From Rhizobium terricola (lineage in GTDB: Bacteria > Pseudomonadota > Alphaproteobacteria > Rhizobiales > Rhizobiaceae): a DNA stretch of 64,000 bases. Positions within the stretch are counted from its first letter, which is position 1. Every line of letters starts with the position of its first letter. Shown one piece after another: positions 3,844 through 21,535 of the stretch. The position numbers and the translations under genes are program-made. The notes beneath the pieces are model-generated. The model was not told where the DNA came from, did not search any database, and saw nothing but the letters and a program-made list of their open reading frames with translations. Where the stretch lies: positions 1,296,649 to 1,360,648 of the forward strand of contig NZ_JABBGK010000001.1 of NCBI RefSeq assembly GCF_012927355.1, written 5' to 3'.

Positions 3844-4133
3844 AGGTTACCCCCCTCTGCCCTGCCGGGCATCTCCCCCTCAAGGGGGGAGATCGATCCA
3901 CGGAGAAGCCTCGTCATAGCTTCAAGGTTATGAGCGAAGGCGCCCGCGATTCCAGAGACAATTACCGCAAGGACCATGGCTCCCCTGCTGACCGCAAGTC
4001 GGAAACAGACCCCCATGCCGAGGCCCGCCGCACGACCGTTGCCAGGACGAGGCGCGCGCCATTTTCCGATCTCCCCCCTTGAGGGGGAGATGCCCGGCAG
4101 GGCAGAGGGGGGTGTTGTGGCCGCGTGCCCCAT
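3840..4133 (-). CDS. Unrecognised 97-residue ORF built on a family-A repeat pair
   Basis: This frame starts at ATG 4133, overlapping the cbiX stop (TGATG), and ends with TGA overlapping the cobH TTG start (TTGA). About a third of it is repeat: PPSALPGISPSRGEIG near the N-terminus and SISPLEGEMPGRAEGG at the C-terminus. The unique centre contains a hydrophobic run, GAMVLAVIVSGIAGAFAH, that could be one membrane helix. No family was recognised. The tight overlaps suggest that it is translated, at least as a coupling frame between cbiX and cobH. Whether the peptide has a function is unknown. Confidence 0.45.
   Translation of the reverse strand: MGHAATTPPSALPGISPSRGEIGKWRAPRPGNGRAAGLGMGVCFRLAVSRGAMVLAVIVSGIAGAFAHNLEAMTRLLRGSISPLEGEMPGRAEGGNL
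3850..4112. repeat. Family-A inverted repeat pair (arms 3850-3894 and 4069-4112)
   Basis: The left arm reads CCCCCCTCTGCCCTGCC and then a palindrome CATCTCCCCCTCAAGGGGGGAGAT. The right arm is its inverted copy, ending GGCAGAGGGGGG. The core of about 174 bp is unrelated to the cores of the other pairs. Confidence 0.93.
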
Positions 4134-7894: not shown

Positions 7895-10800
7895 TTATTC
7901 TCGGGGCTCCCCGCCGGAGAGCCGCGTAAGATCGAACATCGCCGAATTGCTGCGCGGCGTCCACAAGCCACGGTTGATCGCCTCGATCAGACGTTCCGAC
8001 ATTTCCTTCAGGGCCGCCGGGTTCTTCTCCGCCATGAAGTCGCGCACGCGTTCGTCCAGCACGAAGGCCTGGTAGACGGCCTCGAAGTGATGGTCGCGCA
8101 CGGCGCCGGTCGTGGCGGAAAAGGCGAACATGTAGTCGACGGTAGCGGCGATCTCGAAGGCGCCCTTGTAGCCGTGGCGCATCACGCCCTCGATCCATTT
8201 GGGGTTGACGACGCGGGCGCGTACGACGCGGCCGATCTCTTCCTCGAGCGTGCGTATCACCGGCTTCTCGGGCCGCGAATGGTCGTTGTGATAGACGGTC
8301 GGACGGCTACCCGCGACATGCTCGATGGCCGCCGTCATGCCGCCCTCGAACTGGTAGTAATCATCGCTGTCGAGAAGGTCGTGTTCGCGATTGTCCTGGT
8401 TCTGCACCACGGCCTCGACGGTCCGCAAGCGTTCCTCGAACAGACCGCGTTCGGCCTTGCCGTCCTCGCCGGCGCCATAGGCATAGCCGCCCCAGACGAG
8501 ATAGGCTTCGGCGAGATCGCCGCGACGCTCCCAGCCCTTCTCGTCGATCAGCGCCTGGAGGCCGGCGCCATAGGCACCGGGCTTGGAGCCGAAGACACGG
8601 TAGCCGGCGCGGCGCAGGGCCGCCTTGTCGTCCAGCCCGCCGGACATCAGCTGCGCCGCTTCGGCCCGCACACGGGCGGCGATCGGGTTGTCGGTCTCGT
8701 CCTCGTCCAGGGCGGCCACCGCCCTCACCGCCTTGTCGTAGAGGGCGATCTGCTCGGGGAAGGCATCGCGGAAGAAGCCGGAAATCCGAAGCGTGACATC
8801 GACGCGCGGGCGTCCGAGGATCGCCTGGGGGATGATCTCGTAGCCGGTGACGCGGCGTGAGGCCATGTCCCAGAGTGGTTTCACCCCGATCAGCGCCAGT
8901 GCCTGGGCGATGTCATCGCCGCCGGTGCGCATGTTGGAGGTGCCCCAGGCGGTTAGGCCAAAGGAGGTCGGCCAATCGCCATGGTCCTGAACATAGCGCT
9001 GGATCAGCAGCTCCGCCGATTTCTTCCCGAGCTCGTAGGCCGCCGGCGTCGGCACGGCGCGACTGTCGACCGAATAGAAGTTGCGGCCGGTCGGCAGCAC
9101 GTCCGGACGCCCGCGCGTCGGCGCGCCGGAGGGACCGGGGGAAACGAAGCGCCCGGAAAGGCCGGTGAGGAGCCCTTCGATTTCGGCCGGGCCGGATCGG
9201 ACGATCGCGGGCTTGAGGCGCGTTTCGATCTCGTCGAGCACGGCGCGGGTGGCAGGCCAGCTTTCCGGGCATGCGACCTCGCCTGCGACCAGCCGGGAGG
9301 CCAGGAGTTCGATACGCTCGACGGTGTCGCCGGCTGTGCGCCAGGGGGTGTCGGTCAGATCGGCGAGGAGAGCCGGCTTCGGGCCGGCCCACGCGTCGGA
9401 CATGACGCAGTCGAGGGGATCGAAAGTCAACATCCGCCCGGTGGCGCCTTGGTGCGCAGGATCACCCCCCTCTGCCCTGCCGGGCATCTCCCCCTCAAGG
9501 GGGGAGATCGGGGAGGACGGCGCTCGGTCGCCATGAACGCTAGCATTTGCGGAACCCAGGCCTACGCGAGGCGCTTGCGACGTTCCAATCTCCCCCCTTG
9601 AGGGGGAGATGGCCGGCAGGCCAGAGGGGGGAACTTTCGCGCACCCCGCCGTCAATCCCGCGTCCCCTGCGATCGCCCGCTGCAGGCTGGCGTCGCCGCC
9701 CTCGCCCAGGCCGCGCGGCACGCGTGCGAGCGCCACGGTGAGATCGGTCAGCAGCCGGCCCTCCGGAGCAAGGCCGAAGATGTGCAGGCCGTCGCGGATC
9801 TGCATTTCCTTGAGGTCGCAGAGATAGGCGTCGAGCTTTTCGAGGGCCGTCTCCTCTGCCTCTCCCTTGGCGATCCCGGCGTCCTGGTCGAGGCCGATAT
9901 CGGCCACGAGGTCGAGGATCTGTTTCTTAAGCAATTTCAGGCGGCGTGGATCACCGCCCGACGCCTCGTAGTATTCGTCGACCAGCGCCTCGAGATCCTT
10001 CAGTGGGCCATAGCTTTCGGCGCGTGTCAGGGGGGGCGTCAGATGGTCGATGATGACGGCGGAGGTTCGGCGCTTGGCCTGGGTCCCCTCGCCCGGGTCG
10101 TTGACGATGAAGGGATAAAGATGCGGCAGCGGACCGAACACCGCTTCCGGATAGCAGGTCTCCGAAAGGGCCAGCGCCTTGCCGGGCAGCCATTCGAGAT
10201 TGCCGTGCTTGCCCATGTGGATCACCGCATGGGCATCGAACCGTTGGCGCAGATAGGCGTAGAAGGCCAGATAGCCGTGCGGCGGCACGAGGTCCGGCGA
10301 ATGGTAGGTTTCCTTCGGATCGATATTGTAGCCGCGCGCCGGCTGGATGCCGACCACGACATTGCCAAGACGCGACAGCGGCAGGGCGAACCGGCCGTCG
10401 AGGAAGAACGGATCGGTCTCCGGGGCACCCCAGCGCGTCGTGACTTCGTCCTGCACCTTCTTCGGAAGACTTTCGAAGAAGCTAATGTAATCGCTTGCTG
10501 ATAGCGTTTCGCGGATCTCGCGCCCGTCGGCCGCCGCGTTGGTCGGTCCGGCCATCAGGTGGGTCATCAGCGCGTCGCCGTCGGCGGGCAACGTGCCGAG
10601 CGCGTAGCCCTCCCCGGCCATGGCGCGCAGCACCTCGACGGTGCCGGCCGGCGTGTCGAGGCCGACGCCATTGCCGAGGCGGCCGTCGCGGTTCGGGTAG
10701 TTGGCCATGACCAGGGCCACGCGGCGATCGGAGGCCGGTGTTGAGCGCAGACGCGCCCAGGCGACGGCAAGCCTCGCGACGAAGGCGGCACGGCCATCGT

Positions 10801-12142
10801 CCGGCGCATGGCTGACGATATTGGCCTCGACGCGCTCGTCGTAGCGCGCGGCGGCCTTGAACGAGACGGCGCGCGTCATCACCCGGCCGTCGACCTCCGG
10901 CAGCGCCACGCCCATGGCGAGGTCGCGGGCCGAAAGCCCTTGCGTCGAGCCTTCCCAGGCTTGCCGGGTGGAAGACGAGAACAGCGCCTGCAGGACGACC
11001 GCACCCCCTTCGTCGAGCACGGTCGAAACGCGCTCGGCGCCGGGCGCGGACACGGCGAACCCGGTGGCGTTGATCACCACGGCCGGCGGCGCCTCGGCAA
11101 AGATCGCCCGCAGTGTCTCGACCGACACGGCATCCTTGAGACTGGAGACGAACACCGGCAGCGCTAGCAGCCCTTCAGCCGTCAGAGCCTCGATCATGGC
11201 CTCGACGGGCTTGGTCTCGCCGCTCTGGACGAGGGCACGGTAGAAGCAGAGCGCGACGACGGGCACGGGCTGGCGTTCACCCCCCTCTGCCCTGCCGGGC
11301 ATCTCCCCCTCGAGGGGGGAGATCGGACGCGGTAAGCCCGCCGGACCACCTCCTGAGTTGGGACTTCTGGAGAAGGTCTCAGAGGGCACGACGCCAGATG
11401 AACCCGCGGATACCTGCGGCGTGTCGATCTCCCCCCTTGAGGGGGAGATGGCCGGCAGGCCAGAGGGGGGTATCCCGGAATTCGGCCAAGCCGCCGCCGC
11501 ATTTCCCTTCTCCCCGTTCGACGGTGAGAAGGTGCCGGCAGGCGGATGAGGGGCATTGTTCGAAGCCTCTCGCCACTCCGTGACCCCGATCACGCCCCTG
11601 CCCGGCCACCAGATGCCGGCCTTAAGCAGCGGTGCCGCAGGTGCGGGTCTTTCGCCATGGCCGGCAAGGGCGGAGGCATAGTCGATGAACGCCAGTGCGT
11701 TGGCGTCGCCGCCCTCGATCAGATAGGTCCAGAGCGCGGCAAGGTCATCGGAGGCGACCGTTGAAAATTCGGCGAGCCCCGGGTCCGGCTTGTCGTCACC
11801 GGGTAGTACAGCAATTGCAGCGCCGGTCCGAACGGCCACGGCGTGCAGCGCCTCGAGCGCATAATGAAAATAGCTGGCGCCCCCCAGCGCCCGCACCACG
11901 ATCAGCTTGGCGTGGCGCGCGGTTCGCTCGACATAGGTGTCGACCGACATCGGATGCTTCAGGCTCATCAGGCTGGCGAGGCGGAAGCTTGGGCCGGCCG
12001 GCCGCGCGGCGACGGCCGCGGCGATCGCGGCAAGTTCCGTGTCGGCCGCCGACAGGAACAGGATGTCGCCCGGCGACTGGCCGAGATCGACCGCCTCGTC
12101 GCCATCGTTGATCGAACCTTTCTGGGCAAGGAGAAGGTGCAT
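7895..12142 (-). CDS. cobN: Cobaltochelatase large subunit, enlarged by in-frame repeats
   Basis: 1415 residues, against roughly 1275 for typical CobN. CobN is the corrin- and cobalt-binding subunit of the ATP-dependent CobNST complex that inserts Co(II) into hydrogenobyrinate a,c-diamide, the late-insertion pathway. Conserved blocks include HMGKHGNLEWLPGK, AWGTSNMRTGGDDIAQAL and GYEIIPQAILGRPRVDVTLR. About 93 residues (196-288) and 57 residues (836-893) come from palindromic repeats and their cores; both insertions keep the frame and contain no stop. ATG 12142 gives the family start MHLLLAQKGSI and has GGAGAGG upstream; an in-frame ATG at 12196 lies inside a repeat and is rejected. CobS and CobT are not in the window. 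Confidence 0.94.
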   Translation of the reverse strand: MHLLLAQKGSINDGDEAVDLGQSPGDILFLSAADTELAAIAAAVAARPAGPSFRLASLMSLKHPMSVDTYVERTARHAKLIVVRALGGASYFHYALEALHAVAVRTGAAIAVLPGDDKPDPGLAEFSTVASDDLAALWTYLIEGGDANALAFIDYASALAGHGERPAPAAPLLKAGIWWPGRGVIGVTEWREASNNAPHPPAGTFSPSNGEKGNAAAAWPNSGIPPSGLPAISPSRGEIDTPQVSAGSSGVVPSETFSRSPNSGGGPAGLPRPISPLEGEMPGRAEGGERQPVPVVALCFYRALVQSGETKPVEAMIEALTAEGLLALPVFVSSLKDAVSVETLRAIFAEAPPAVVINATGFAVSAPGAERVSTVLDEGGAVVLQALFSSSTRQAWEGSTQGLSARDLAMGVALPEVDGRVMTRAVSFKAAARYDERVEANIVSHAPDDGRAAFVARLAVAWARLRSTPASDRRVALVMANYPNRDGRLGNGVGLDTPAGTVEVLRAMAGEGYALGTLPADGDALMTHLMAGPTNAAADGREIRETLSASDYISFFESLPKKVQDEVTTRWGAPETDPFFLDGRFALPLSRLGNVVVGIQPARGYNIDPKETYHSPDLVPPHGYLAFYAYLRQRFDAHAVIHMGKHGNLEWLPGKALALSETCYPEAVFGPLPHLYPFIVNDPGEGTQAKRRTSAVIIDHLTPPLTRAESYGPLKDLEALVDEYYEASGGDPRRLKLLKKQILDLVADIGLDQDAGIAKGEAEETALEKLDAYLCDLKEMQIRDGLHIFGLAPEGRLLTDLTVALARVPRGLGEGGDASLQRAIAGDAGLTAGCAKVPPSGLPAISPSRGEIGTSQAPRVGLGSANASVHGDRAPSSPISPLEGEMPGRAEGGDPAHQGATGRMLTFDPLDCVMSDAWAGPKPALLADLTDTPWRTAGDTVERIELLASRLVAGEVACPESWPATRAVLDEIETRLKPAIVRSGPAEIEGLLTGLSGRFVSPGPSGAPTRGRPDVLPTGRNFYSVDSRAVPTPAAYELGKKSAELLIQRYVQDHGDWPTSFGLTAWGTSNMRTGGDDIAQALALIGVKPLWDMASRRVTGYEIIPQAILGRPRVDVTLRISGFFRDAFPEQIALYDKAVRAVAALDEDETDNPIAARVRAEAAQLMSGGLDDKAALRRAGYRVFGSKPGAYGAGLQALIDEKGWERRGDLAEAYLVWGGYAYGAGEDGKAERGLFEERLRTVEAVVQNQDNREHDLLDSDDYYQFEGGMTAAIEHVAGSRPTVYHNDHSRPEKPVIRTLEEEIGRVVRARVVNPKWIEGVMRHGYKGAFEIAATVDYMFAFSATTGAVRDHHFEAVYQAFVLDERVRDFMAEKNPAALKEMSERLIEAINRGLWTPRSNSAMFDLTRLSGGEPRE
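9464..9634. repeat. Family-A inverted repeat pair inside cobN
   Basis: Arms at 9464-9510 and 9588-9634 are inverted copies around a 77-bp core. The 171-nt unit equals 57 codons. In CobN it is read as PPSGLPAISPSRGEIG, then core residues, then ISPLEGEMPGRAEGG. It lies between LQRAIAGDAGL and MLTFDPLDCVMSDAW, two conserved CobN segments. Confidence 0.93.
11279..11470. repeat. Family-A inverted repeat pair inside cobN
   Basis: Arms at 11279-11325 and 11427-11470 enclose a core of about 101 bp. In CobN they give IPPSGLPAISPSRGEID and PISPLEGEMPGRAEGG, the same two peptides, in the same frames, as the pair at 9464-9634. The unit lies directly beside a family-B copy (11505-11553), so the two families make one compound insertion. 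Confidence 0.93.
11505..11553. repeat. Family-B single palindromic repeat inside cobN
   Basis: CCCTTCTCCCCGTTCGACGG and its partner arm GTGAGAAGG, followed by CGGCAGGCGGATGAGGGG, match the family-B consensus. In CobN the copy is translated as NAPHPPAGTFSPSNGEKG, straight after the conserved GVIGVTEWREAS segment. Confidence 0.88.
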
Positions 12143-12173
12143 CAGACGGTGCCTCTCCGGCGTCGAACAGACA

Positions 12174-12365
12174 TCCCCCTCTGCCCTGCCGGGCATCTCC
12201 CCCTCAAGGGGGGAGATCGGAATGCGGCCACGGCAATGTCGTCACCACCACCCCGCAGCCTTGTTGTTTCCTCAGAGGAAAAGGCAAGCCATCCTTTTGC
12301 CAAACGGCAACAGCCGGATCGTTCTCCCCCCTTAAGGGGGAGACGCCCGGCAGGGCAGAGGGCGG
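12174..12365. repeat. Family-A inverted repeat pair between cobW and cobN
   Basis: Arms at 12174-12219 and 12322-12365 enclose a core of about 102 bp, and the unit fills most of the 253-nt cobW-cobN spacer. It lies in the polycistronic transcript and could form a large hairpin between the two genes. The arm nearer cobN supplies a spurious in-frame ATG at 12196 upstream of the real cobN start. Confidence 0.92.
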
Positions 12366-12395
12366 TGGACGGCAGATTCATAGGCTCAACAAACC

Positions 12396-14153: not shown

Positions 14154-14180
14154 GCAAGGTGTGGGCATGATGCCCGGCAC

Positions 14181-14500
14181 GGTTGGCAGGTCTCCTGGCT
14201 CGCAGGTCGCGGCGCCCAATGGCGCCTGCGGATCTTCCTCGCCTTCCCGAAAGTGAATGCGGCGCGAAAGGGGGACGATTCGTAGACATAGAGGCGTCCG
14301 GCCCTGGCTGATCGCGCAGCCCTTCAGTGGCTTTTCCGTTCCTGCCGGGATCCGGACCGTTCACACAACGCGAACCGTCGCCCCTCACCTCGCAAGTCCG
14401 GACGGAAGACCCTCGCTGCTCTACAGTCGCGGGGTCGGCTGCGATTGACGGTTCCGGACTGGATCCCCGTCGTCGCATTCCCTTTTGTTTCCCGGGTCGC
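14181..14500 (-). ncRNA. Adenosylcobalamin riboswitch (B12 element) upstream of cobP
   Basis: On the minus strand the canonical pieces appear in order: AAAAGGGAATGCGAC near 14475-14488, CCGCGACTGTA near 14425, AAGCCACTGAAGGG near 14320, GGGAAGGCGAGGAAG near 14240, and the B12 box AGCCAGGAGACCTGCC at 14200-14185. The riboswitch binds adenosylcobalamin and lowers expression of downstream B12 genes. Core coordinates are approximate at the 5' end. The flanking stretches (13999-14180 and 14501-14607) contain no gene that I can support. Confidence 0.93.
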
Positions 14501-14607
14501 CAATCGTCGAACCGAGAACCATCCGTAAGCGATCTGATTAGGCGCAAGGACCGTTCAAGTCAATCGACGCGCAGACGTGGCGACGCGCAGACGTGACGAC
14601 GCGAACC

Positions 14608-21096: not shown

Positions 21097-21334
21097 ACCA
21101 ACCTCCGGTCCGGACGTCTGCTTATCGCCTTTCAAAGCGAAAATCAAAGCCGGTTTGAACCATGCGGCGACAATGCACCGTTCGGTCATGCCCTTCATTG
21201 ATGCACCGCAAACATCGGCGGAATTGCCGCCATCGGGATCCCATTCATGGCGCGAATTGGATGACAGCGACAATTATTTGCTCGGTGGCGACGTTTGCTC
21301 TTGCCAACAGCCCCTCTTCCCCGATAATTGCCGC

Positions 21335-21506
21335 CGACCCTGCAGGGAGAAACCGGTTCACTCCGGTGCCGAAGGAGCAACCGCCCCGGAAACTCTCAGG
21401 CAAAAGGACCGCAGGGCGTCGACTGGAACTCTGGAGAGAAACCTTCCCCCCAAGGGAAGGGTGCGCCGAAGGGATAACAATCTCAGGCAAACGGACAGAG
21501 GGGGCT
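21335..21506 (+). ncRNA. Tandem glycine riboswitch upstream of gcvT
   Basis: Two aptamers follow one another. Aptamer 1 (about 21335-21415) has CAGGGAGA, GCCGAAGGAGCAA and ACTCTCAGGCAAAAGGACCG. Aptamer 2 (about 21420-21503) has CTCTGGAGAGA, GCCGAAGGGATAACA and CTCAGGCAAACGGACAGAG. This is the classical double architecture that turns on glycine cleavage genes when glycine is high. The 238-nt stretch between the DUF2946-like gene and the riboswitch holds no gene but should contain both divergent promoters. Confidence 0.96.
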
Positions 21507-21535
21507 CATGACACCGGCACGACTGTGCCACGACT

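Follow-up and report, generated by a model that had tools for sequence, protein, structure and literature searches.

Intragenic invertons have reportedly been described by Chanin and others (Nature, 2024) and by Milman, Yelin and Kishony, and the original report of the Rickettsia palindromic elements (RPE) is said to be that of Ogata and others from 2000. In one account (PMC10969869), RPE lie in frame inside protein genes and are translated along with them, and inversion of the Correia element is treated as already published. A second account (PMC3733652) places REP repeats of the GTAG and CGTC families inside ORFs, including those of UvrD-type helicases, with hairpins that are often paired and mostly intergenic, and puts different REPs at about one site of Xanthomonas recB. 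The rhizobial palindromic repeats known as RIME, Sm-repeats and the AB and C palindromes of Sinorhizobium are described as intergenic in a third (PMC2573895).

The palindromic elements inserted in cobN of Rhizobium terricola resemble RPE in behaviour, being short, in frame and translated; the likeness to RPE drawn in the initial annotation is fair in that sense, since a palindromic element stands in frame inside a conserved protein-coding gene. Unlike RPE, the CobN inserts come from another order of Alphaproteobacteria, two sites of a single gene are used repeatedly by several families, and sister species differ in the orientation of the element. With REPs they share hairpin repeats that are often paired, mostly intergenic and in some cases within ORFs. 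With intragenic invertons and the Correia element they share a segment flanked by inverted repeats that occurs in both orientations; however, the CobN orientations differ between species, each represented by one genome, and the segment concerned is itself a repeat element that was inserted. The Sinorhizobium repeats are likewise rhizobial palindromes but are described as intergenic. Palindromic inserts read in frame and inversions within genes are both known on their own, and their combination is new; among the matches listed from the open-licence literature, mostly titles, palindromic inserts in CobN or turned within a gene are unreported, which is weak evidence of absence. The likely reading of the locus is that two disordered linkers of CobN accept palindromic elements, whose orientation is exchanged through their arms. 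About a hundred genomes form a natural series in which one enzyme gains, loses and turns such elements at two loops. This series allows protein tolerance to be measured and presents a route by which a protein stretch may change DNA strand in one step with the frame kept.

The stretch analysed (the window) comprises 64,000 nucleotides of the 4.93-Mb R. terricola genome (G000). The cobN gene, encoding cobaltochelatase subunit CobN (open frame; PDB CobN 9uk9, E = 0), occupies positions 7895..12142 on the minus strand. Its frame is unbroken from 12196 to 7895, and the open-frame translation counts 1433 residues from the first ATG; position 12142 is the start common to relatives (MHLLLAQKG) and gives a CobN of 1415 residues including inserts. 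The repeat listing and the open frame bear out the earlier observation of two family-A inverted pairs and one family-B copy in an uninterrupted CobN frame. The site-1 element (11279..11470, minus strand; repeat listing and comparison with relatives) has two inverted arms around an interior of about 100 nt, in orientation class F, and corresponds to the inverted pair I13, in which 11279-11325 pairs with 11425-11471 (47 nt, 94% complementary). Its interior (11326..11424, minus strand) has one match in its own genome and aligns, as the reverse complement, with the interiors of G030, G033 and C. lividus (L101). A family-B hairpin copy adjoining this element (11505..11553, minus strand; second-family match I18, 11501-11554) is translated FSPSNGEK. 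The site-2 element (9464..9634, minus strand; repeat listing) is also in frame. Its inverted pair I1 joins 9442-9511 with 9585-9654 (70 nt, 81% over the extended arms), and other rows of the listing give core arms at 9464-9510 and 9588-9631. As had been claimed, both A pairs use the same frames, and the peptides PPSGLPAISPSRGEI and ISPLEGEMPGRAEGG are present at both insert sites. The window further contains the family-A inverted pair I8 (3849..4113, unstranded; repeat listing), with arms 100% complementary. Rfam at gathering scores gave three riboswitch matches in positions 1-24000 of the window and zero on the repeats; a cobalamin riboswitch lies close to the cob genes (14168-14538, minus strand) and a tandem glycine riboswitch at 21333-21508 (plus strand).

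In the R. terricola genome the family-A pattern has 56 matches with at most three mismatches, against 0 for a backward control, and as RNA the two CobN inserts fold far below shuffled sequences (z -10.2 and -10.5; -145 and -131 kcal/mol). Thus, a chance origin of the repeats is excluded. Both inserts would form very stable hairpins in the mRNA. In the family-A list, 19 cases of a plus-strand match followed by a minus-strand match no more than about 210 bp away were taken as pairs, accounting for 38 of the 56 matches. These elements measure 124-267 bp, and their arms, each about 47 nt long, enclose an interior that varies. The arms are identical at 39-44 of 45 positions in 11 pairs but at only 31-35 in the other 8; the interiors are mutually unrelated, with 2 of 171 comparisons above z 4. 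Set beside MITEs, terminal inverted arms are present, the interiors within the genome are alike in those two comparisons only, and one second interior copy occurs in C. lividus. Pfam scanning of 20 of the 66 candidate ORFs over repeats yielded no match for 17; the remaining three are UvrD, where the repeat sits between two helicase domains, and DUF559 and CcmH, where it lies only ahead of the domain. The inserts probably represent short non-autonomous palindromic elements with many genomic places, mostly outside recognised genes. Mobilisation by a RAYT transposase was rejected because the own genome has no Y1_Tnp (PF01797) match; such matches occur in one (G001) of 23 same-genus relatives and in 6 of 40 relatives overall. 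Neither the GTAG nor the CGTC tetranucleotide is present in the family-A arm sequences as read by eye.

An in-frame family-A insert, in the ISP frame, also occurs near residue 302 of the UvrD/PcrA helicase (G000:C1:769674-772313; L193:3175-5814, minus strand). The same place holds another repeat-like insert in G008, G013 and G014, an insert of unrecognised kind in G023, G004 and G028, and just 15-54 nt in 23 of 30 loci. The idea that the own-genome UvrD insert is a turned version of the G008 insert is unsupported, the minus-strand z being 1.2 versus 7.8 on the plus strand, to which shared flank adds.

With an E threshold of 0.001, 55 of 60 related genomes gave a CobN-like match, and 80 of 587 candidate loci were kept. 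Of 109 CobN proteins built, 103 were distinct and intact. Excluded from the set were the frame-broken genes of G013/L160 (one genome), G014 and L127, the incomplete L114, gene fragments from G004, G008, G016, G018 and G029, and most same-order CobN, from which only G041, G052 and G053 are included; L172, truncated where its contig stops, and L175, which begins at a contig end, were retained. With the insert-free G023 as reference, inserts of at least 10 residues follow residue 196 in 51 of the 103 rows and residue 737 in 61, and 3 rows carry one elsewhere. A tally with other length thresholds, which explains site-2 counts of 61 in one case and 64 in the other, finds an insert in 72 of the 103 CobN (51 at site 1, 64 at site 2, 43 at both) and none in 31. 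The inserts comprise several repeat families and occur in multiple genera. When the alignment was inspected for the same residues in repeat-free species, they were not seen; among the rows listed, most insert-free CobN genes show 15 nt at the first site and 6-33 nt at the second. The length of about 1275 residues attributed earlier to CobN of relatives is roughly right, since rows without a listed insert span 1233-1273 residues; within the genus, CobN ranges from 1246 to 1527. On a 95-leaf core tree, the presence of recognisable family-A hairpins requires at least 20 gains or losses at site 1 and at least 22 at site 2. This recurrence at the same two sites over genera, and the turned orientation described below, both go beyond the initial annotation.

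Several CobN proteins show additional arrangements. At site 2 of L078 (G022) the whole element is duplicated in tandem, with interiors 96% alike, in a protein of 1527 residues. In L111, L112 and L115, the interiors at sites 1 and 2 of one CobN resemble each other (73-82%), suggesting that an element was copied from one site to the other, and similar interiors are found at both sites in R. sophorae, R. laguerreae and Phyllobacterium. The Rhodobiaceae MAG L170 carries a 14-residue insert, TSTNFVIAGLDPAI, at reference residue 796, perhaps another translated repeat.

In an AlphaFold model of CobN residues 1-1200, pLDDT stays below 50 and secondary structure is missing in stretches 201-289 and 833-904, which lie between better predicted elements, so the model supports the earlier proposal that the inserts reside in loops. 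In the alignment with the solved 9uk9 (E = 0), both insert sites fall in gaps separating aligned stretches. The model superposes on 7c6o with a TM of 0.49 and an rmsd of 15, too loose for domain placement, and thus the loop assignment is taken from pLDDT and secondary structure only. Interiors differ at codon positions 1/2/3 by 62/53/67 (320 codons, 11 same-orientation pairs), whereas the corresponding counts for the CobN core are 470/284/2259 (7 taxon pairs). The even distribution gives no support for peptide-level selection on the interiors, and the inserts therefore look like tolerated passengers. The elements had been proposed to be kept because of properties of the peptides that they encode. 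This part of the proposal, as worded, finds no support in the same counts, since for interiors without codon-position constraint it seems enough that the frame is kept, stops are absent and the loop is tolerant; the hydrophilic character itself holds mildly, the Kyte-Doolittle values of the inserts being -0.66 and -0.51 versus -0.11 for the core. Selection for turnability is likewise unsupported. Turned in silico, 29 of 40 hairpin pairs (including a few of mixed family) are stop-free, but so are 21, 10, 28 and 16 of 40 in the unused frames, and there is thus no sign of selection keeping the elements turnable. Judging from the observed recurrence and frame and from the modelled loops, CobN inserts would survive at two disorder-tolerant linkers if in frame and stop-free, and the codon-position counts indicate that their interior peptides are not selected for sequence. 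As a way of living inside a gene, this is unusual for repeats but probably harmless.

The reading frame of the arms is less variable. A single frame (ISP...) accounts for 123 of the 136 family-A hairpins in CobN inserts, the remaining 13 being read in others; this count is inflated by shared descent, yet the tree demands the repeated gains or losses given above. Five of the six frames of the arm, read by eye, are open; the three that are open but hardly used each contain a cysteine, and two of them are basic (+2, +4). The constant arm frame suggests some selection on frame choice. Three further genomes show a frame break at an insert site: in L127 the frame of cobN shifts inside the insert, adjoining an arm; in G013 it breaks at an arm remnant at site 2; and in G014 it breaks between core residues 194 and 199. 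The uvrD gene of G014 is also frame-broken at its insert, and breaks in both genes suggest, though do not demonstrate, sequencing indels.

The site-1 interiors of eight species constitute two reverse-complement classes, F (G000, L102, G022, G019) and R (G033, G030, L101, G013). When seven interiors were compared with the arms trimmed, all 12 comparisons between the classes matched on the minus strand, and all 9 within a class on the plus strand. Inverted arms that misled the assemblers could in principle have left an interior turned, as the arms are long near-perfect inverted repeats, most searched assemblies are in many contigs, and the G014 frame breaks fall at inserts in both cobN and uvrD. 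Nonetheless, such an artefact is very unlikely: all 21 comparisons are consistent with one two-class division, interiors of opposite class differ by 11-45% and hence are not copies of one read set, and the arms, at about 47 nt, are shorter than usual sequencing reads.

The clearest case is that of the sister species G022 and G030 (bootstrap 100), in which the whole site-1 element, including the interior, is in opposite orientation (93% over 195 nt, minus strand). Both site-1 inserts are 321 nt long, and they are 76% identical as they stand and 87% with the element turned. The G022 interior turned in silico yields GRGNHAASPPELAFVERVSEGAVPDEAGDACSES, and the actual G030 peptide is GRGNHATPPPELAFVERVSEGMVPDEAGNACRES. 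A rival account, independent insertion, in which related elements entered this site separately and in opposite directions and none turned there, is unlikely: the inserts of this pair share length, position and the upstream insert sequence (0.77 identity), and their interior identity (0.89) fits that of the core (0.91). In favour of independent insertion, both sites accept many different elements, and elements do move whole, as seen in the like interiors at both sites and in the second copy of C. lividus. A diverged donor copy is also conceivable given the short reach of the search: a G033-interior query against 16 genomes gave a single match in each of G033, G013, G022 and G030, two matches in C. 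lividus, where the second copy lies elsewhere and is 72% similar, and none in the other 11, but it missed the known elements of G000 and L102 (70-76% identity), so diverged second copies would escape detection. Under the preferred reading, exchange of orientation through the arms, the inverted arms would let the intervening segment be turned by recombination or template switching between them. The same locus might then encode the peptide of the other strand with the frame kept, the two orientations being observed in different species.

The Fitch minimum on the gene tree is four orientation changes, two of them at fully supported nodes; the interior's own tree gives three, at weak nodes with support of 35-80. 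One of the two fully supported changes separates L102 from its sister G033. The L102 interior has an identity of 0.78 to G000 and 0.76 to G033, whereas the adjoining insert sequence is 0.925 identical to G033, and replacement therefore fits this case better than a simple turn. Replacement, in which homologous DNA from outside enters by recombination at the arms, either way round, and exchanges the interior, is possible as a general account, although the odds are against it. It agrees with L102 and with the region upstream of cobN, where same-length pairs in G000 and G033 hold unrelated interiors, but for G022 and G030 the interior has diverged as much as the rest of the gene, and a foreign donor is unnecessary.

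Phase variation between two selected CobN isoforms would agree with the repeated changes and with both orientations being open in frame, in different species, but it is extremely improbable given interiors without codon-position constraint, no excess of turnable frames and the 31 of 103 CobN that have no insert; CobN, moreover, we take to be a biosynthetic enzyme. A bolder version of the preferred reading, that site 1 is a live intragenic inverton turning within populations without a dedicated invertase, such that the gene alternates two in-frame peptides from opposite strands, is unlikely; both orientations were found between species only, with one genome per species.

The intergenic family-A pair upstream of cobN (12171..12367, unstranded; repeat listing and comparison with relatives) is present in 5 of 12 genomes looked at: the own genome (G000), G033, L102, L101 and G013 (L160). 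No turned orientation was found in these five genomes. The interior length of the upstream pairs (window 12171-12367; L101-L103 and L160) is constant at 106-109 nt, and their interiors are alike in G000 and G013 and in G033 and L102, but not in other comparisons. Within cobN, weaker cases suggest further turned elements: the Sinorhizobium site-1 elements L107 and L108 match with z 5.5 on the minus strand and 2.6 on the plus strand, and two Rhizobiales (L116 and L117) show a similar relation between site 1 and site 2.
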